This document shows, piece after piece, positions 26,503-35,782 of a stretch of 64,000 nt of DNA; the stretch's first letter is position 1, and every line of letters starts with the position of its first letter. A model generated the notes under the pieces. That model did no database searches. It was not told the origin of the DNA and saw nothing but the letters and a program-made list of their open reading frames with translations. The DNA comes from Streptomyces atratus. Lineage in GTDB: Bacteria; Actinomycetota; Actinomycetes; Streptomycetales; Streptomycetaceae. The stretch is from positions 1 to 64,000 of the forward strand of contig NZ_BMRN01000039.1 in NCBI RefSeq assembly GCF_014648655.1, read 5' to 3'. The translations under genes were made by a program, and so were the position numbers.

Positions 26503-28983
26503 ATGACGCAGCGGGCACCCCACTCCTTCGGCGAGCAGACCCCCGGGGCATCCGGCACTTCCGGCCGCCCCGGGCCGGCCATGATCGACGCCGGGTCCGA
26601 GCTCGACCCGGTCCATCCGATGAAACTGCCGGCCCCGGCCGTGAGCACCCGCGGGCTGACCGCGGCCGAGGTGGCCGAGCGGATCGCCCGCGGTGAGGTC
26701 AACGACGTACCCGTCCGCTCGTCCCGTTCCGTCCGCGAGATCGTCCGCGCGAACGTCTTCACCCGGTTCAACCTGATCATCGGCGTGCTCTGGCTGATCA
26801 TGCTGTCCGTCGCGCCGATCCAGGACAGCCTCTTCGGCTTCGTGATCATCGCCAACACCGGCATCGGCATCATCCAGGAGTGGCGGGCCAAGAAGACCCT
26901 CGACAGCCTCGCGGTCATCGGCGAGGCCAAACCCACGGTGCGACGCGACGGGGTCTCGGCCGAGATCTCCACCACCGAGATCGTCCTGGGCGATCTCGTC
27001 GAGCTGGGCCCCGGCGACAAGGTCGTCGTGGACGGCACGGTCGCCGAGGCCGACAGCCTGGAGATCGACGAATCGCTGCTCACCGGCGAGGCCGACCCGG
27101 TGCTGAAGCAGCCCGGCGACCCCGTGATGTCCGGCAGCTTCGTCGTCGCGGGCGGCGGCTCGTTCGCCGCCACCAAGGTCGGCCGCGAGGCCTACGCCGC
27201 ACAGCTCGCCGAGGAGGCGTCCCGCTTCACCCTCGTCCAGTCCGAGCTGCGCACCGGTATCTCCACCATCCTCAAGTACGTCACCTGGATGATGGTGCCG
27301 ACCGCGATCGGCCTGATCATCAGCCAGCTCTTCGTCAACAACAACGACTTCAAGGGGTCGGTCGCCCGGACCGTCGGCGGCATCGTCCCGATGATCCCGG
27401 AAGGCCTGGTGCTGCTCACCTCGGTCGCCTTCGCGATCGGTGTCGTACGGCTCGGCCGCAAACAGTGCCTGGTGCAGGAACTCCCCGCCATCGAGGGTCT
27501 GGCCCGCGTCGACGTCGTCTGCCTGGACAAGACCGGCACCCTCACCGAGGGCGGCATGGACGTCACCGAGGTCAGGACGCTGGGCGGTGCGGACGACACG
27601 TACATACAGCGCGTACTGGGTGCCCTCGGCGCGTCCGACCCCCGGCCCAACGCCAGCCTGCAGGCCATCGTCGACGCCTACCCGGACGGGGAGGAGTGGC
27701 GGTGCACGCAATCGTTGCCGTTCTCCTCGGCCCGCAAGTACAGCGGCGCCGCGTTCGACGAGGGCGGCGGCCGGGCGTCGGCCTGGCTCCTGGGCGCGCC
27801 CGATGTGCTGCTGCCCGAGCAGGACCCGGCACTCACCGAGGTCGGGCAGCTCAACGAGCGGGGGCTGCGGGTGCTGCTGCTGGCCCGCGCGCAGGGCGAG
27901 CTCGAAGGGCCTGACATCGCCGCCGGAGCCGTACCGAGCGCGCTGGTCGTGCTGGAACAGCGGCTGCGGCCGGACGCCGGGGAGACGCTGGCCTACTTCG
28001 CCGACCAGCGGGTCGCCGCGAAGGTCATCTCCGGCGACAACGCCGTCTCCGTCGGAGCGGTCGCCGGAAAGCTCGGCCTGCCGGGCGCCGAGAACACCCT
28101 GGACGCGCGCCGGCTGCCCACCGACCCGGACGACATGGCCACGGCCATGGAGGAGAACGCGGTCTTCGGCCGGGTCACCCCGCAGCAGAAGCGGGACATG
28201 GTCGGCGCGCTCCAGTCCCGCGGTCACACCGTCGCGATGACCGGCGACGGCGTCAACGACGTGCTGGCGCTGAAGGACGCCGACATCGGCGTCTCCATGG
28301 GTTCGGGCTCCGAGGCGACCCGGGCCGTCGCCCAGATCGTGCTGCTCAACAACAGCTTCGCGACGCTGCCGTCCGTCGTCGCCGAGGGCCGCCGGGTGAT
28401 CGGCAACATCACCCGGGTCGCCACCCTGTTCTTGACCAAGACCGTCTACTCGGTGCTGCTGGCGATCCTGGTGGTCTGCTTCCAGGTCGACTACCCGTTC
28501 CTGCCGCGCCATCTGACCCTGCTGTCGACGCTGACGATCGGCGTCCCGGCCTTCTTCCTGGCCCTGGCCCCCAACAAGGAACGGGCCCATCCGCACTTCG
28601 TGCGCCGCGTCATGCGGTATGCGATCCCGTCGGGCGTCATCGCGGCCGTCGCCACCTTCGTGACGTATCTGATCGCCCGGCACTACTACTCCGGTACGGG
28701 TGCGCTGGACGCGGAGACCAGCGCGGCCACGCTCACGCTGTTCCTGGTCTCGATGTGGGTCCTGGCGATCATCGCCCGCCCGTACACCTTGTGGCGGATC
28801 TGCCTGGTGGCGGCGATGGGGCTGGCGTTCCTGATCGTGCTGGTGGTGCCGTGGCTGCAGAACTTCTTCGCGCTGAAGCTGGTGGGAGCGGCGATGCCGT
28901 GGACCGCGGTGGGCATCGCGGTGGTGGCGGCGGCCGGCCTGGAGTTCGCCTGGCGGCTGGTCGGCCGCCGCTTCCCGGTGTAG
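26503..28983 (+). CDS. P-type cation ATPase, CtpE-like (probable calcium)
   Basis: An 826-residue HAD-type P-ATPase. The phosphorylated Asp lies in CLDKTGTLTEGG (about residue 342), the actuator motif is LLTGEADPV, and the hinge motif is TGDGVNDVLALKDADIG. The helix-4 ion motif MIPEGL and the region ANVFTRFNLIIGVL resemble mycobacterial CtpE, a calcium-uptake pump. There are no N-terminal metal-binding Cys motifs, which argues against a copper or zinc role. ATG 26503 is chosen; the first 55 residues are low complexity. Confidence 0.85.
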   Translation: MTQRAPHSFGEQTPGASGTSGRPGPAMIDAGSELDPVHPMKLPAPAVSTRGLTAAEVAERIARGEVNDVPVRSSRSVREIVRANVFTRFNLIIGVLWLIMLSVAPIQDSLFGFVIIANTGIGIIQEWRAKKTLDSLAVIGEAKPTVRRDGVSAEISTTEIVLGDLVELGPGDKVVVDGTVAEADSLEIDESLLTGEADPVLKQPGDPVMSGSFVVAGGGSFAATKVGREAYAAQLAEEASRFTLVQSELRTGISTILKYVTWMMVPTAIGLIISQLFVNNNDFKGSVARTVGGIVPMIPEGLVLLTSVAFAIGVVRLGRKQCLVQELPAIEGLARVDVVCLDKTGTLTEGGMDVTEVRTLGGADDTYIQRVLGALGASDPRPNASLQAIVDAYPDGEEWRCTQSLPFSSARKYSGAAFDEGGGRASAWLLGAPDVLLPEQDPALTEVGQLNERGLRVLLLARAQGELEGPDIAAGAVPSALVVLEQRLRPDAGETLAYFADQRVAAKVISGDNAVSVGAVAGKLGLPGAENTLDARRLPTDPDDMATAMEENAVFGRVTPQQKRDMVGALQSRGHTVAMTGDGVNDVLALKDADIGVSMGSGSEATRAVAQIVLLNNSFATLPSVVAEGRRVIGNITRVATLFLTKTVYSVLLAILVVCFQVDYPFLPRHLTLLSTLTIGVPAFFLALAPNKERAHPHFVRRVMRYAIPSGVIAAVATFVTYLIARHYYSGTGALDAETSAATLTLFLVSMWVLAIIARPYTLWRICLVAAMGLAFLIVLVVPWLQNFFALKLVGAAMPWTAVGIAVVAAAGLEFAWRLVGRRFPV

Positions 28984-29007: not shown

Positions 29008-29892
29008 CTACTTCACGTCGACGAAGTCGCCCGCGGTCGTGACGGCCGGGGTGGTGGACGTACCGGCGAAGCTGTAGCGCCAGTAACCGTCGACCGACGC
29101 CTTGACGGTCGTCTTCAGGTTGCCCGTGCTGTTCGTCTTGATCGTCTTGACCGTGGTGTAGGTGCTGCTGGTCTTCTTGCGGAACTGGAGCTTCACCGGC
29201 TGCCCGGTGTAGCCGTGGTACGCGTGGTCCTCCCAGTTCGCCCGCGACAGCTTCCCGGTGACCGTGATCGTCCCGCCCTTCTTCACGGGCTCCGGAGCGG
29301 CGTTCACCGTCAGCTTCGACAGCCGCTGCACACGGGCCGTGCTGTAGAAGTCGGTGTAGGCGACGTCGGTGTCGTTACCGGCGAACGCACCCGCGGTGAC
29401 GTGCCAGGTGCCGGCCAGGGAGTTCTTGTACAGGTCGTAGCGCGGGTCGATCGTGAAGGTCCGCTTGCAGGTCGAGGTCGTCGCGTTGACCTTGGTGCAC
29501 GTCGCCACGTCCTCGTTCGGCAGGATGGCCCCGTCGATGGTGTTCTCGGAGGACGGGTCCGTACCGTGCCACAGGTCGGCGTAGGCATTGACGACACCGT
29601 CCGGGTGCGACGCGGTGACCGAGATGGAGATCGTCTTCGTGGCGGTGGTGCCCAGGACGATGTCCTTGCCGCCGTTGACGACGACCTTGGAGATGACGGG
29701 TTCCGCCGTGGCCGCGCGGGTGGCCACGGCGGCCTTCGAAGAACCCTTGGCGGCGGTGCCGAAGACCTCGGCGGCCGACGTCGGCTTGTGCAGGTTCGCA
29801 GCAGAGTGGTCGCCCGCCTGGGCGGCCGGAACGGCAAGAGCGGACAGAGCCAGGGCGCCGGAAACGGCTGCAACAGTGGCACGAATTCGCAT
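29008..29892 (-). CDS. Secreted protein, paralogue A
   Basis: A 294-residue exported protein with signal peptide RIRATVAAVSGALALSALAV ending near AAQA. The middle domain has an intramolecular Cys pair (ATCTKVNATTSTCKRTF). The C-terminal half is an Ig-like domain (ITVTGKLSRANWEDHAYHGY, then KLQFRKKTSSTYTTVKTIKT). The last 110 residues are almost identical to those of the neighbouring gene at 30141, whereas the middle domains have diverged. GGGGA precedes ATG 29892 by five bases. Extracellular; function unknown. Confidence 0.85.
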   Translation of the reverse strand: MRIRATVAAVSGALALSALAVPAAQAGDHSAANLHKPTSAAEVFGTAAKGSSKAAVATRAATAEPVISKVVVNGGKDIVLGTTATKTISISVTASHPDGVVNAYADLWHGTDPSSENTIDGAILPNEDVATCTKVNATTSTCKRTFTIDPRYDLYKNSLAGTWHVTAGAFAGNDTDVAYTDFYSTARVQRLSKLTVNAAPEPVKKGGTITVTGKLSRANWEDHAYHGYTGQPVKLQFRKKTSSTYTTVKTIKTNSTGNLKTTVKASVDGYWRYSFAGTSTTPAVTTAGDFVDVK

Positions 29893-29956
29893 GTGTTTCC
29901 CCAGTGGAGAAAGGGGCCCCCGCGAGTACGTGGTTCGACCCGGCCGGGGCTCGTTC

Positions 29957-29985
29957 GGTCTGTGAGTCTGCTGACTCGGAAGACC
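29957..29985 (-). promoter_or_regulatory. 5' region hairpin of secreted paralogue A
   Basis: GGTCT and AGACC outside and GAGTC with GACTC inside form an interrupted stem around the loop TGCT. It lies 65 bases upstream of the start. A hairpin of different sequence but the same place and a 4-base loop stands upstream of paralogue B. Confidence 0.45.
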
Positions 29986-30140
29986 AGACCTCTTACGCAT
30001 GTGAAGGGTTGTACGCAAAGTGGAGTTTTCACCCGGTCGTCCCGCGGCGAGAAGCGCGGCGGCCCACGCGGCGGGCCGTGCCCGGGGACGGGAGCCGTCC
30101 CCGGGCACGGCCCGGAGTGGTGCGTGTTGTGCGACGGAAA

Positions 30141-31073
30141 TTACCTCACGTCGAGGAAGTCACCCGCGGCCGAGACGGCCGGGGTGGTGGACGTACCGGC
30201 GAAGCTGTAGCGCCAGTAACCGTCGACCGACGCCTTGACCGTGGTCTTCAAGGTGCCGGTGCTGCTCGACTTGATCGTCTTGACCGTGGTGTACGTGGAG
30301 CTGCCCTTCTTGCGGAACTGGAGCTTCACCGGCTGCGAGGCGTAGCCGTGGTACTTCAGGTCGTCGAAGTTCGCACGCGACAGCTTGCCGGTGACCGTGA
30401 TCGTCCTGCCCTTCTTCACGGGCTCCGGAGCGGCGTTCACCGTCAGGCTCGACTGCCGCTGCACACGGGCGGTGCCCAGGCCGTCCTGCAGCGCGAAGCC
30501 GATCTTGGTGACGTCGGGGTTCATCGGGTCCTCGCCGTTGTAGTCGACGGCGAAGCCCATCGCCTTCCACGTCGTGGCGTCGGCGTTGCCGATCAGGTCG
30601 TACTGCGGCCAGACGGCGATCTGCCCCTTGCAGGTGGCGACCGTGGAGGACACGGCCTTGCAGGTGGGGTCGACATCGCCGTAGAGCTCGTTCGTCGGAG
30701 AGTTGAACGAGCCGCGGTAGAGCTCGGCACCGAGCTTGAAGTCCGAGGCGAAGATGTTCACATCGGCGGCGTGCGTCACGGTGAACGTGGTCGGCACGGT
30801 CTTCGTGGCGGTGGTGCCCACGGCGATCGGCTTGCCGCCGTTCACCGTGAACTTGGAGAAGGTGAGGTCGAGCTGACCGGGGGCGCTCTCAGCCGCGAGG
30901 GAGCGCGCGCCGGACTTGGCACCGGAGTCGGCACCGGTGGTGGACTGAGCGGCGCGCGCGACGTCGCTGACGGTCGAGCGGTGCGCGTCGTCGGCCTGAG
31001 CCGCCGACGGAATGACAAGGGCGGAGAGAGCCAGGGCGCCGGTTACGGCGGCCACGGTGGCACGAATGCGCAT
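30141..31073 (-). CDS. Secreted protein, paralogue B
   Basis: A 310-residue exported protein and tandem paralogue of the gene at 29008. Signal peptide RIRATVAAVTGALALSALVI; middle domain with a Cys pair (TCKAVSSTVATCKGQIAVWP); C-terminal Ig-like domain nearly identical to that of paralogue A (VTGKLSRANFDDLKYHGYAS). GGGGA six bases before ATG 31073 mirrors the ribosome site of paralogue A; the in-frame ATG two codons earlier is too close to it. Each gene has its own leader region, so they are probably transcribed separately. Confidence 0.85.
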   Translation of the reverse strand: MRIRATVAAVTGALALSALVIPSAAQADDAHRSTVSDVARAAQSTTGADSGAKSGARSLAAESAPGQLDLTFSKFTVNGGKPIAVGTTATKTVPTTFTVTHAADVNIFASDFKLGAELYRGSFNSPTNELYGDVDPTCKAVSSTVATCKGQIAVWPQYDLIGNADATTWKAMGFAVDYNGEDPMNPDVTKIGFALQDGLGTARVQRQSSLTVNAAPEPVKKGRTITVTGKLSRANFDDLKYHGYASQPVKLQFRKKGSSTYTTVKTIKSSSTGTLKTTVKASVDGYWRYSFAGTSTTPAVSAAGDFLDVR

Positions 31074-31134
31074 GTTCATTCCCCAACATGGAGAAGGGGG
31101 CCCGCGGAGGTCGTCCGCCCACAGGCCCACGATC

Positions 31135-31162
31135 GTCTGTGAAGCCTGGTGGCTTCACAGAC
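31135..31162 (-). promoter_or_regulatory. 5' region hairpin of secreted paralogue B
   Basis: A perfect 12-base inverted repeat, GTCTGTGAAGCC and GGCTTCACAGAC, around the loop TGGT, 62 bases upstream of the gene start. About 16 bases further out both paralogues share GTGAA(C/G)GGTTGT (minus strand ACAACC(G/C)TTCAC), a possible promoter element. Confidence 0.6.
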
Positions 31163-31263
31163 GAGACCATCGAGACACGTGAACGGTTGTGCAGCTGTTG
31201 GGGATTTCTTGCGCATGTGCCCCGCGCCCCGGCGCCGATGTACTTCGGACCCGCTCCGGTCCG

Positions 31264-34200
31264 TCAGTCGAACCAGCGGTCCCGGGCCAGTTCCTCCGTA
31301 CGGGACGGGTCCTCCAGCAGCGCCGCGACCTCGAAGCGGCGCGGCCACTGCCCCGCCGCCCAGGCCAGGCCCGCAGCGACGCCCTCCAGCGTGGCGGCGT
31401 GCACGGTCCCGTCGGGGGTGCGGCGCCAGTCCAGTTCGACGCCGCCCGCGCGCAGTTCGCCGTGCTCGATGTACACGTCCGGCGTTCCGGCGCCGAGCAG
31501 GACCCGTACCGAATCCGGCACTTGGTGCTCCTCACCCTCCGTCGTCACCTCAGCCTCGACGCTCTCGCCGAGCCTGCTCACCTGGAACAGCTCGGCCAGA
31601 TCGGCCGCGCGTGTCGAGGTGACCGGGAGCAGCGGGAGTCCTCCGGCGAGCGGCAGCAGATCCGGGGCGTCCGCGATCACGGCGTCAGCCGCGTCGACGA
31701 CCCGGACCTCGCCGTCGACCACGGCCCGCAGTTCGTCGGGCAGCGTGACCTGTTCCGGGTCGAGATCGGCCAGGGCCGTGTACAGGGAGTGCAGTTGTAC
31801 GGGGTCGACCACACGGTCCCCGTCCGCGAGCCGGCCGAGGAGTTCGGCGGCGCCGCCCGGCTCGTCGAGGAGGGCGGTCACGGACGTCCGTACGCCGAGG
31901 GCACGCAGCACCTGGGCGTCGTCGAAGCCGGTCGCGTCGGCGGAGTCGTACAGTCCGGCCAGCCGCGGGTCACCGCCCGCAGACCGCAGACCGGCCGGGC
32001 GGCGGCCGTCGAGCACGGGGTGGTCGCGCAGCCACCAGGCCGTATAAGGGCGGACGGACTGCGTCGTGCCGTCGGGCAGCAGCACCCGCACCGGCTGGGT
32101 CAGCGCGTCGCGCAACGGCGGCTGGGCGAGCAGGGCGAGCGCCTGCGGCCAGGCGCCGTCGTCGACGAGGTCCAGGTCGCGAACGGCGACGAGTTCGGTG
32201 GCGACCGGCGGCACGACGGTGTCGGGCAGCTGGTCGAGGATGTCCTCGCACCACACGTCCACGGCGTCGAGCAGCCCGGCGTCGTCGGGCTCGGCGAAGT
32301 CGCCCTCGCGGGGCTCCAGTTCGTCCGGGTCCAGGACGACATCGGTGGCCCGCACGAGGGCGAAGGTGGCGAGCACACCACAGGCGGTGAGCGGCTGCTC
32401 GCCCCAGCGGTCGGTCAATTCCTGGTCGCAGAGAGCAAGTTCACCCTCCCGCATGATGGCCGCGAACGGGCTGCCGGGCAGCACGAGTTCACCGGCAGGT
32501 GCGGGTTCGCCGTCCTCGTCGGGAAGGGCGAGCGCGCCGAGCCAGGGCTCGTCGCCCGGTGCCAGTTCCGCGTCCCGCACAAGGGTGAGGACGGTCTCTG
32601 CGAGCTCTTCGGCGTCCAGCGCGTCCTCGTCCCAGATCTCACCCGCGTCCAGCGATCCGGCGACGGCTGCCCGCACCTGCGGGGTCGTCAGCACGGCGCG
32701 GGGCGTGGCGGGCAGGGCGCCCAGCTTCTCCAGCAGCGGATGGGCGGCGTCCGGGTGCGCGACCTTCAGACCGAGCCGGGCGAGGCGGCCCAGGACCGGG
32801 CCGGTGAGCGCGTCGGGGAACGGGAGGAGGACCTGGCGGGGTCCGATGGCGGTGCGGGGGGCGGTCGGGGTCGCGGCTTCCTGTGCTTCCGGTGTACCGG
32901 CGAGCGGGACGGGCAGGCCGGAGAGACGGTCCGGGTCGATGCCGGACAGGCTGTCGTACAGCCGCCGCCACCAGCCGGGGTCGCGCTCCAGACCGGCGAG
33001 ACGGTCGATCGCCTCGGTCAACGGGACGCGGGCGATACCGAGGGTGCGCAGTTCGCTGCGGCGCTCCAGTCCGGCGGGCAGCAGGCACGGCAAGACCTCG
33101 GCGAGCACCCGTACGGTCTCGGCGCCCACGCCTTCCAGTACCTCGGCCTCGATGGGGCGCAGCGCGGTGGTGGCCGTCTCGCGGATGCCGTCCGCCTGCG
33201 CGTCCCAGGTGTCCCACCGGTCCATTTCGGTGGTGGCGTCGCGCGGGGCGGCAGGCTCCAGGAACGCGACGCGCGGCAGCCGCTCCAGGATCGCGCCGCG
33301 CAGGGCGCCGTCCAGTTCGCCCTTGCCGAGCGGTCCGGGGACGAGGTCGATGGTGTCGATGGACACCGGCTGCCAGTCGGCGAGCAGCTCGGCGTACGCA
33401 TCGGCCGCACGCTGCACCAGGAAGTCGGTGAGCGGTCCCGGTGCGAAGTGGCGGCGGGCGGTGTCGAGCGGCAGCGACGCGATGAGCAGCGCCGGGATAC
33501 CGAGGGGTTCGTCGGTGGGCGTCGGCGCGTGGACGACGGGGACGGTGCGGGGGCGTACCGGGGCGCCCTCCGTGTCCACCGGCACCGCCCAGGTGACCGA
33601 CCAGTGCGGGCGAAGCCGTTCCTCGCGGGGCCGGTCGGCCAGCAGGGCGGGCTCGACGGGGCCGTGCCGGGTGACGGTGCGCCAGCGGTGCGTACCGTGC
33701 GCGGAGTCCTCGACATGGGTGTACGGGCCGTGCTGCGACCGGCGCAACGTCCGTACGGTGTCAGGGGTTTCGATCACGATCTCGTCGAGGCCGCGCAGAG
33801 TGAGCAGGAGCGCGTCGTCGACCGCGTCGAGCAGCCGGACCACGAGGTCCTCGGCGCCGCCGTCGCGCAGCGGGAGGACGACGACGGTGTCGTACCCGTC
33901 GGGTGCGGTGCCCTCGGCGGGCAACGGGAGCCGCAGCAGGGGTACGTGGCCGTCGCGGCGGCGGAGCTCGTCGCCGAGGCCCGGACTGGCGACGGCCGTC
34001 CTTGCGGCGAGGTCGCGGGCCTCGGCGAGGGACCAGCGGACGCCGCCGTGCCGGCCGACGACGGCGGGCTCGTCGCTCACCGCGAGCACGGCGGCGAACC
34101 CGACGCCGAACCTGCCGACAGCCCCCTCGTGGCCCTCGCGCTTGGCGGAGGCGCGCAGGGTGGAGAGCGACTCCACGCCGGTGGCGTCGAGGGGGGCGCC

Positions 34201-34470
34201 GGTGTTGGCGGCGGCAAGTGCGGCGGGAGCGTCCGCGGTCGCCGGGTGCAGAGTGAGGCGGAGCCGGCCGGGGACCTGTGCGCGGGCGGCGGCGTCGGCG
34301 GCGTTCTGGGCCAGCTCGACGACGAGGCGGTCGCGGTAGCCGCCGAGCGCGAGGTCCTCCTCGGCGTTGGCGTCCTCACGGAATCTGGCAGGGCCGGCGC
34401 CCCAGGCGTCGAGCACGCCGCGTCGCAGCCGTGCGGTCCCGAACGGGTCGGCCCCCTCGGTCGCATTCAT
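31264..34470 (-). CDS. Large sacsin-type HATPase protein
   Basis: A 1,068-residue protein. Residues 1-180 are a GHKL (Hsp90-like) ATP-binding domain: VVELAQNAADAA supplies the N-box Glu and Asn, and AVGRFGVGFAAVLAV the glycine lid, as in the N-terminal sacsin repeat. The remaining 880 residues are mixed alpha/beta without known motifs and without membrane segments. ATG 34470 is chosen; a GTG two codons upstream is also possible. It probably acts as an ATP-dependent chaperone-like factor. Its conserved neighbour is DUF3027. Substrate unknown. Confidence 0.82.
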   Translation of the reverse strand: MNATEGADPFGTARLRRGVLDAWGAGPARFREDANAEEDLALGGYRDRLVVELAQNAADAAARAQVPGRLRLTLHPATADAPAALAAANTGAPLDATGVESLSTLRASAKREGHEGAVGRFGVGFAAVLAVSDEPAVVGRHGGVRWSLAEARDLAARTAVASPGLGDELRRRDGHVPLLRLPLPAEGTAPDGYDTVVVLPLRDGGAEDLVVRLLDAVDDALLLTLRGLDEIVIETPDTVRTLRRSQHGPYTHVEDSAHGTHRWRTVTRHGPVEPALLADRPREERLRPHWSVTWAVPVDTEGAPVRPRTVPVVHAPTPTDEPLGIPALLIASLPLDTARRHFAPGPLTDFLVQRAADAYAELLADWQPVSIDTIDLVPGPLGKGELDGALRGAILERLPRVAFLEPAAPRDATTEMDRWDTWDAQADGIRETATTALRPIEAEVLEGVGAETVRVLAEVLPCLLPAGLERRSELRTLGIARVPLTEAIDRLAGLERDPGWWRRLYDSLSGIDPDRLSGLPVPLAGTPEAQEAATPTAPRTAIGPRQVLLPFPDALTGPVLGRLARLGLKVAHPDAAHPLLEKLGALPATPRAVLTTPQVRAAVAGSLDAGEIWDEDALDAEELAETVLTLVRDAELAPGDEPWLGALALPDEDGEPAPAGELVLPGSPFAAIMREGELALCDQELTDRWGEQPLTACGVLATFALVRATDVVLDPDELEPREGDFAEPDDAGLLDAVDVWCEDILDQLPDTVVPPVATELVAVRDLDLVDDGAWPQALALLAQPPLRDALTQPVRVLLPDGTTQSVRPYTAWWLRDHPVLDGRRPAGLRSAGGDPRLAGLYDSADATGFDDAQVLRALGVRTSVTALLDEPGGAAELLGRLADGDRVVDPVQLHSLYTALADLDPEQVTLPDELRAVVDGEVRVVDAADAVIADAPDLLPLAGGLPLLPVTSTRAADLAELFQVSRLGESVEAEVTTEGEEHQVPDSVRVLLGAGTPDVYIEHGELRAGGVELDWRRTPDGTVHAATLEGVAAGLAWAAGQWPRRFEVAALLEDPSRTEELARDRWFD

Positions 34471-34622
34471 GCTCACGCTCTGACTCCGCTCTCTCCGGTT
34501 ACGCGTTGCCCGTGCCGCCAGTGTGCGCCTGAAGGTACCGGGTCCTCTCGCCGGACGGGGGGCGGTGTCTGCGGGGTGACCCACGGCAGGCCGGATTCTG
34601 CCGCACCGCACACCACCGCTCA

Positions 34623-34785
34623 GGTTCCGTCCTCGAACGCCGGACGGGCTGGGGCGTGCGAAATCAAGCCCGTCGAGGGGGTCCCCCCATGCCCTCAAGG
34701 CCATGGGGGAGATTGAGGACAAAGCGGTTCGCCGGGCGGGCCCACAGGCACGTCTCAAGCCCGTCCGGCGTTCGAGGACGGAACC
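34623..34785. repeat. Perfect 28-base inverted repeat in the intergenic region
   Basis: Bases 34623-34650 and 34758-34785 are exact reverse complements with 107 bases between them. The core (CCGTCCTCGAACGCCGGACG) recurs in altered form at 54268 and 62805, so this is a dispersed intergenic repeat. The surrounding 34471-34846 stretch contains no gene; the spacer also has CCCCCATGCC with GGCCATGGGGG pairing. Confidence 0.8.
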
Positions 34786-34846
34786 GGTTCGCGGGGCGGG
34801 CCCGCAGGTTCGATGGCCGGGCGCGCCGGGGAAACCCCGGCCCCGC

Positions 34847-35782
34847 TCAGGAGTGACCGAGGTCCTCCGTAGGGCCGTCCGGTTCCGCCGGGACCGAGCC
34901 CGAGTCCCGCGCCGGACGCAACGGATACTCGTCCACCTGCATCGTGTCCAGCGCATGCGGCGCCGGCTTCGGCGGCTTCGGCATCACCGCCGCCTCCGAA
35001 TGCCCACCGCACCCGTACGACAGCGACACCACATGCCCGTCCGCCGGACCGAACTCGTTCGCACACACCCCGAACGCCTGCTTCAGCGAACCCGCCAACG
35101 GCACCAGGAACGCACAGGTGACACAGGACGCCGGAGCAGCCTGAGCCATCGGCGTCTTCGCGCCGAACGCCTCGTCCCACCGGTCGGCCGCCGTGTGCAG
35201 CCCGTACCGCGAGAGCACCCGCGCCCGGCGCATACCGAGCTCCTCCGCGACCGCCGAGATCGAGCCCCGGCTCGTCGTCGCGGGGTGCGTCGTCAGCTCC
35301 GCGTCCTCCGCGTCGACGAGGTCGGCCATCTCCTGGGACACCTCGGAGACCGCGGAGTTCGGCGGCGGCTCCTCCTCGCCGGTGTAGCCGGGCTCCAGAC
35401 GGAGGTCGTCCGCCTCGGTCGGCAGCAGATCGCCGGGCCCCATGTCCCCGGGACGCAGCCGCTCGCTCCACGGCACCCACTCCGGGGCGAGGATCGCGTC
35501 GCTGCCGGGCAGCAGCACCGTCTCGTCGAGGGTGACGTTCTTCGCGCGGGACGCCCGGGCGACGGTCACCGCCCAACGCCAGCCCCGGTAGCCCGGCTCC
35601 TCGCACTCGAAGAAGTGCGTGACGACCCGGTCCCCCTCGGAGACCACGGCCACATGCTCACCGACGACCCCCGGCGCGGCTGCTTCCTCGGCCGCCGCGC
35701 GGGCGAGGTCCACCGCCTCGGCGCACAGACGGTCGGGAACAGGGGTACGGGCCGTACGGCTTCGCGTCGTCACAGCACTCAC
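34847..35782 (-). CDS. DUF3027 protein
   Basis: A 311-residue cytoplasmic protein matching DUF3027. It contains CEEPGYRGWRWAVTVARA, the motif WVPWSERLRPGDMGPGD and a late Cys cluster (CVTCAFLVP, then GVCANEFGPADG and SYGCGGHSEA) that may bind zinc. The family is restricted to actinobacteria as I recall. It lies downstream of the large ATPase's repeat region on the same strand. Function unknown. Confidence 0.85.
   Translation of the reverse strand: MSAVTTRSRTARTPVPDRLCAEAVDLARAAAEEAAAPGVVGEHVAVVSEGDRVVTHFFECEEPGYRGWRWAVTVARASRAKNVTLDETVLLPGSDAILAPEWVPWSERLRPGDMGPGDLLPTEADDLRLEPGYTGEEEPPPNSAVSEVSQEMADLVDAEDAELTTHPATTSRGSISAVAEELGMRRARVLSRYGLHTAADRWDEAFGAKTPMAQAAPASCVTCAFLVPLAGSLKQAFGVCANEFGPADGHVVSLSYGCGGHSEAAVMPKPPKPAPHALDTMQVDEYPLRPARDSGSVPAEPDGPTEDLGHS

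Follow-up and report, generated by a model that had tools for sequence, protein, structure and literature searches.

Messenger RNAs of the ompA type carry 5' stem-loops that act as stabilisers. For ECF promoters in general, the transcription start can be placed relative to the -10 element. In excerpts of two papers, RNA pyrophosphohydrolases are described as blocked by terminal stem-loops (PMC4681348), and mRNAs as protected by 5' stem-loops (PMC7509114). The S. coelicolor sigma-E list, as excerpted from PMC6767563, contains promoters with the same letters and spacing as those described below, for example AACC-N16-GGTCT.

The window (the whole stretch analysed, 64,000 nucleotides) is set on contig C39 of a 9.8 Mb genome. 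It holds two tandem minus-strand genes, A and B, encoding secreted proteins with two beta-sandwich domains (Table 1). Upstream of both genes the layout is (A/G)CAAC(C/T)-N17-(A/G)TCT-N8, followed by a 5-bp stem with a 4-nt loop. An earlier note on this DNA had described tandem secreted paralogues, each with an upstream hairpin with a 4-base loop and stems of differing sequence, and this description holds (loops ACCA in B and AGCA in A). In gene B, the stem is the inner part of an inverted repeat of 13 bp per side (arms CGTCTGTGAAGCC and GGCTTCACAGACG, loop ACCA), the outer part of which is imperfect in gene A. The distance of 60-65 bases between hairpin and start codon given in that note fits gene B, where the inner stem ends 62 nt upstream of the first ATG (31079), and is slightly short for gene A (71 nt).

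Table 1. Coordinates of genes A and B and of their leader elements
Feature	Coordinates	Strand	Basis or remark
Gene A (P0001), secreted two-domain protein, 294 aa	29008..29892	-	ORF/translation
Gene A, predicted stem over the Shine-Dalgarno	29896..29912	-	minimum-energy fold; no covariation
Gene A, predicted second leader stem	29916..29950	-	minimum-energy fold
Gene A, inner hairpin GAGTC-AGCA-GACTC	29964..29977	-	sequence, fold, covariation
Gene A, -10 element GTCT	29986..29989	-	sequence
Gene A, -35 element ACAACC	30007..30012	-	sequence
Gene B (P0002), secreted two-domain protein, 312 aa	30141..31079	-	alternative start 31073
Gene B, predicted stem over the Shine-Dalgarno	31079..31095	-	minimum-energy fold; no covariation
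Gene B, predicted second leader stem	31098..31128	-	minimum-energy fold
Gene B, complete inverted repeat with outer arms	31134..31163	-	left arm adjoins the -10
Gene B, inner hairpin AAGCC-ACCA-GGCTT	31142..31155	-	sequence, fold, covariation
Gene B, -10 element GTCT	31164..31167	-	spacing; TCT at fixed place in 101/122 hairpin-anchored genes
Gene B, -35 element ACAACC	31185..31190	-	sequence; CAAC at fixed place in 107/122 hairpin-anchored genes

Promoter and inner hairpin

The string ACAACC(G/C)TTCAC is common to both upstream regions, as had been noted. It had been regarded as a separate site; instead, it appears to form the -35 region of a promoter, the -10 of which sits 8 bases before the inner stem. 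It is read as the -35 plus the start of the spacer because core and spacing match the S. coelicolor sigma-E promoters in the excerpt of PMC6767563. The proposed genome search for the string gave four exact sites in 9.8 Mb and none reversed; two of the four lie away from family genes, and a role as a stand-alone regulatory element was rejected. A reading of ACAACC as a sigma-70 -10 box (TACAAC) was also rejected, the preceding base being T in A and C in B, and TCT following at a fixed distance.

The geometry is rigid. A hairpin together with a CAAC(C/T)...TCT pair 10-24 nt apart was found at 154 starts; 145 of these have a spacing of 18, 121 have a TCT-to-loop distance of 13, and 131 have a loop of 4 nt. 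CAAC(C/T) and TCT were built into the patterns of the column-pair and arm-shuffling analyses, and their invariance there arises by construction. Circularity was avoided by anchoring on the inner-stem consensus only, which asks for no promoter letters. In the 122 genes anchored in this way, TCT is in place in 101, CAAC in 107 and both in 101; CAAC lies at most 5 nt from its expected place in 120. AAC in the -35 and TC in the -10, 16-17 bp apart, as in ECF sigma-E-like promoters, were found in 101 of these 122 genes. These letters support an ECF, sigma-E-like (cell-envelope stress) promoter for the family, and the sigma factor using it would itself be sigma-E-like. If the -10 is (A/G)TCT, transcription should start at about the first base of the inner stem, with predicted RNA 5' ends at ~31155-31157 for gene B and ~29977-29979 for gene A.

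At four other loci (L074, L076, L078 and L079), a stretch TGA(C/T)(C/T)TTCACAG(A/G)AA(A/G)GTC is common ~10-30 bases upstream of ACAACC. It is a possible activator site; none was seen by eye before the window genes.

For the hairpin, 180 leaders of the family were compared. They represent 175 genes, five (L106, L136, L153, L156 and L166) being counted twice for two in-frame starts, and were taken from genes whose start fits a signal-peptide pattern, which misses others; exact duplicates were removed, and close strains remain. Promoter and hairpin occur together in 147 leaders and the promoter without hairpin in 6, while 27 have no promoter by the pattern, some of these being spacing variants with a hairpin. 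At least four of five Watson-Crick pairs are present in 147 of the 153 promoter-bearing leaders, against 27.7% of random positions in the same leaders, an excess that carries no p-value because the leaders are homologous. All five pairs occur at 4.9% of random positions (register best of 15). The loops (n = 154) are mostly of the form A-N-C-A (88 in all: AACA 47, ATCA 15, AGCA 14, ACCA 12), and AAGA was found 12 times. By position (n = 123), the first A is present in 106, the C in 94 and the last A in 87.

The inner pair 38-45 has the highest covariation of all column pairs (APC z 7.5), with the letters TA 58, CG 31 and TG 11 (n = 123). Shared ancestry was taken into account with a quick tree under a simple model, made from the N-terminal and middle domains without the C-terminal domain. 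In independent pairs of rows differing on the 5' side, the 3' side was scored as same, opposite or unchanged. In the fixed register, pair 36-47 gave 10.0 same, 0 opposite and 5.0 unchanged of 15 independent pairs (median p 0.002), and pair 38-45 gave 8.7, 1.0 and 1.3 of 11 (median p 0.02). In the best register, the corresponding values are 9.0, 0 and 1.0 of 10 for pair 38-45, and 2.6, 0 and 4.4 of 7 for pair 36-47. Only these two of the five inner pairs vary enough for the test; the outermost gave 3 independent pairs and was not significant. The 153 rows were required to have at least three of five pairs in the best of 15 registers, by which few rows, if any, were dropped. Two further alignments (A1 and A2) consist of rows picked for at least four of five inner pairs, with 6 of 77 and 5 of 53 rows dropped by hand, including the deviant L024; the results from them are biased by this selection and were not used as proof.

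The mismatches show a strand bias. What reads as G.T on the sense strand reads as A.C on the opposite one, and a DNA site or cruciform would be expected to show the two equally. Four or more of the inner pairs are Watson-Crick in 118 leaders in the fixed register, and the remaining cells of these leaders are 20 G.T, 0 A.C and 0 other. In the best register, they are 22, 0 and 3 (120 leaders), and 24, 2 and 11 when at least three pairs are required. Without the stem-quality filter, the fixed register gives 51 G.T against 28 A.C of 765 cells, a ratio partly due to the inclusion of off-register leaders. In all these counts, the related sequences are not independent.

The column-pair, tree and strand-bias tests all point to a conserved RNA stem-loop, and the formation of the inner hairpin in the sense RNA is well supported by the covariation together with mismatches that are G.T and not A.C. 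The earlier note had proposed that a structure is kept despite sequence change, and the compensatory changes in two inner pairs, phylogenetically independent, bear this out; the covariation check in homologues thus found covariation, not its absence. It had left the choice between leader RNA and protein site. The evidence favours RNA, and a protein site in the DNA is disfavoured for the inner stem.

In the window, the fold z of the leaders is -3.38 for B and -1.74 for A, with a median of -1.9 over 120 leaders. A scan of positions 29700-31400 with Rfam release 15 gave no match near threshold (best score 19.6 bits, gathering threshold 80).

Occurrence in other genes and genomes

Six matches to protein B, itself included, are present in this genome, and 102 of 150 same-genus genomes, its own included, have at least one. 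A model of the full element (R1) gave three matches at E ≤1 in this genome, all before family genes, with 150 of 4241 first-look candidates scored. At E ≤0.05, 32 of 61 same-genus genomes have a match. The 70 named loci gave 72 matches below 1e-4; three Planotetraspora loci gave none at E ≤1. In the family set (41 genomes), matches at E ≤0.001 occur in 6 genomes; these include 2 of the 36 from other genera, both with the match before a family gene. For the 61 same-genus genomes, positions were compared with those of the family matches and 20 stretches were read; matches below E 0.001 sit before family genes, L202 excepted. Some of the weaker matches also precede family genes, and in eight of 20 stretches read they precede other, mostly secreted, proteins. 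The exception, at ~327-400 of L202, matches with E 4.7e-8, has a degenerate -10 and is followed by no intact family gene; it is perhaps a relict leader. Another leader lies upstream at L065, L066 and L090. It has no ACAACC promoter but a shared stem, CCCGCCGGGGGGAAA(A)C.CGGCGGG, just ahead of the start codon, and these three perhaps form a second leader class.

With a stricter promoter pattern, 39 sites were found in 101 genomes; the reversed pattern gave 0. The promoter ACAACC-N17-GTCT precedes LytR-CpsA-Psr-like genes at L218 and L248, and D-alanyl-D-alanine-carboxypeptidase-like genes at L230 and L242 (all named by eye), which would fit an envelope-stress regulon. The hairpin does not accompany this promoter type in general. 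At 14 non-family sites, three further sites of the stricter pattern lying outside this count, a 5/5 stem was found in 2 (one gene family) and a 4/5 stem in 4, a rate close to that of random positions.

One other family has a comparable arrangement. A search of 121 genomes for a secreted protein that looks VCBS-like by eye (562 aa were read, and the record ends inside the protein) found 7 loci in 5 genomes. The arrangement is present at three of these seven. L251, L252 and L253 carry the ACAACC-N17-GTCT promoter with a 12-bp hairpin directly after the -10. The letters of these hairpins (loci 100, 62 and 58% identical) are quite different and include some compensatory changes, in only three sequences. 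At L257 the promoter is accompanied by a poor hairpin, and L254-L256 have no such promoter in the stretch scanned.

Encoded proteins and their two domains

Genes A and B are flanked on one side by an E1-E2 (P-type) ATPase gene (26503-28983) and on the other by a long ORF (31264-34956). Gene B has two candidate ATG starts, 31079 and 31073. About 28 bases past its stop, at ~30073-30113 between B and A, lies a long, very GC-rich inverted repeat with no T run, which is probably a terminator-like hairpin of gene B.

Protein A scores 24.4 bits against PF18968 (DUF5707), under the cut-off of 26.8, and protein B gives no match up to E 1. A paralogue on contig C64 passes with 33.6 bits, which A and B do not, and the match is confined to part of the middle domain. 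No mention of DUF5707 was found in 5.39 million open-access papers. The NCBIfam search led nowhere, and a sequence search of solved structures returned nothing below E 0.05. The best named matches of protein B are from Streptomyces, the closest being 94% identical. An AlphaFold model of protein B, with 46 sequences from the window and the named loci as input, consists of two beta sandwiches (mean pLDDT 82.5). In a fold search, the modelled C-terminal domain (residues 207-307) matched 9jtz_C best (Z 9.3, rmsd 2.8, 92 aligned), and Ig and scFv domains at Z ~7, a level common for the tool. The domain resembles Ig-type domains in the model, and the label 'Ig-like' is fair but not proven. The whole protein superposed poorly overall (TM ≤0.32 among the matches listed).

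The C-terminal domains of A and B (B residues 206-312) are identical at 90 of 107 amino acids and 89.7% of nucleotides, against 55 of 154 and 55.8% for residues 31-205. The set of tandem members comprises 49 loci, 105 genes and 63 within-locus pairs. Nucleotide identity of the C-terminal domain is 0.851 within a locus vs 0.775 between loci, and codon agreement for its identical residues is 0.845 vs 0.752; for the middle domain, nucleotide identity is 0.596 vs 0.578. In 43 of 105 genes, the C-terminal domain is more similar to that of the tandem neighbour than to that of the orthologue, for which the best middle-domain match elsewhere was used and only the tandem set was considered; for the middle domain this holds in 0 of 105. 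The suggestion of the earlier note that nearly identical C-terminal and diverged middle domains reflect selection or gene conversion keeping one end the same is supported, as concerted evolution. Neighbour-closer C-terminal domains number 23 of 37 where the match elsewhere is below 80%, and 6 of 37 where it is at least 90%. For the window pair and its 94% relative, the orthologues are at 0.97 and 0.95 and A-B at 0.90, so any conversion there predates the split from that relative. Homogenisation of the C-terminal domain between tandem copies, with a diversifying middle domain, is supported by these comparisons and would most simply occur by gene conversion. One domain that evolves in concert, next to another that diversifies, is a second clear signal on how these secreted proteins change.

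Possible roles of the hairpin

The shape of the hairpin is kept while its letters change, and it therefore probably matters for the lifetime or usage of the message. The reading we favour, tentatively and with slightly less than even confidence, is an mRNA that begins with a protective, ompA-like 5' hairpin set by an envelope-stress promoter. An ECF, sigma-E-like promoter would drive each gene, and transcription would start at, or within about two bases of, the 5-bp hairpin with its often A-N-C-A loop, as judged from promoter geometry. The mRNA would then begin with the hairpin, which most likely would shield the 5' end against removal of its pyrophosphate and against 5'-end-dependent decay. 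Through this shielding, we propose, the secreted proteins could be made in bulk during envelope stress. Two features speak against a 5' stabiliser. The stem is only 5 bp long, and in many leaders the inverted repeat extends beyond the predicted start as far as the -10, a feature that a pure 5'-end hairpin would not require.

In the main rival, which we consider unlikely on balance, the hairpin is a binding site through which an RNA-binding protein or a small RNA controls translation or decay. A-N-C-A loops in 88 of the 154 leaders would suit such a site, but 66 leaders have other loops, no partner is known, and the hairpin is restricted to this family and one other among the sites examined. 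The extended repeats bring in a DNA operator, which would span about -10 to +20 and bind a dimeric regulator. The outer arms adjoin the -10, and the left one, which touches it, probably lies outside the transcript. A leader's own outer arms match at 4.52 of 8 positions, against 3.78 when shuffled (sd 0.084, 126 leaders), and GATC/GATC (45) and GGTC/GACC (19) recur among 153 rows. Where 5 or more of the 8 outer pairs are formed, the outer-arm mismatches lean to A.C (10 G.T, 25 A.C); in the tree test, independent pairs gave 1.9 same, 0 opposite and 4.1 unchanged of 6. On these values, an RNA-type signal was not supported for the outer arms, and covariation beyond shared ancestry was not established. 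The independent-pair result counts against an operator too, as does the wide variation of the half-site letters. The mismatches of the inner stem, 20 G.T vs 0 A.C, are not alike on both strands and are unpredicted for a DNA site, and we regard this reading as quite improbable.

The rigid distance to the -10 would also fit an effect on early elongation, in which the hairpin forms behind RNA polymerase and acts on promoter escape or pausing, not on the lifetime of the mRNA. No observation here separates this from the stabiliser, and it is given a very low probability. The whole leader could act as a translational switch, in which the second and third stems alternate to hide or free the Shine-Dalgarno. 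Of 120 leaders folded, 112 have a recognisable Shine-Dalgarno, and the minimum-energy fold pairs it in 101 of them; the arms of the second stem slightly favour their own partner (6.42 vs 5.95 of 7 when swapped, sd 0.06, 89 long leaders). The second stem, however, has no strand bias (11 G.T, 9 A.C), the stem over the Shine-Dalgarno shows no covariation (4.46 of 6 with its own partner, 4.50 with swapped ones, 91 leaders), and several short leaders (19 of 96 good-stem leaders are below 104 nt) are too small for both stems. A switch is judged the least probable of these explanations.

Beyond the favoured protective hairpin, a bolder and rather doubtful generalisation can be made. The promoter-hairpin unit, an envelope-stress ECF promoter tied rigidly to a hairpin in the earliest transcribed bases, would be a recurring Streptomyces design that arose separately in the DUF5707-related and VCBS-like families, giving stress-induced mRNAs with a protected or protein-readable 5' end, with the outer arms adding a second role at the promoter. 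The leader motif of the family was not found in the open-access literature. The locus offers a compact natural case in which promoter class and mRNA 5'-end structure go together. If the favoured reading is true, envelope-stress transcription would be linked to mRNA stability in Streptomyces, a covarying leader motif with no Rfam match found would be added, and a short cassette would be available for long-lived mRNAs in laboratory and industrial strains.

As a covarying hairpin leader, the element is like the structured leaders in Rfam, none of which it matches in positions 29700-31400. With the ompA-type stabilisers, it would share a stem-loop at the 5' end (predicted here) of an mRNA for a surface or secreted protein. 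It differs from them in its short 5-bp stem, rigidly set on an ECF-type promoter and repeated across a paralogue family. The promoters of the S. coelicolor sigma-E regulon, as excerpted from PMC6767563, are alike in AACC, the 16-17 bp spacer, (G)GTCT and the secreted or envelope genes that follow. In comparison with the same excerpt, the -35 of the family usually reads ACAACC, in many cases followed by one base and then TTC, the -10 is ATCT or GTCT, and a hairpin follows at a fixed distance.
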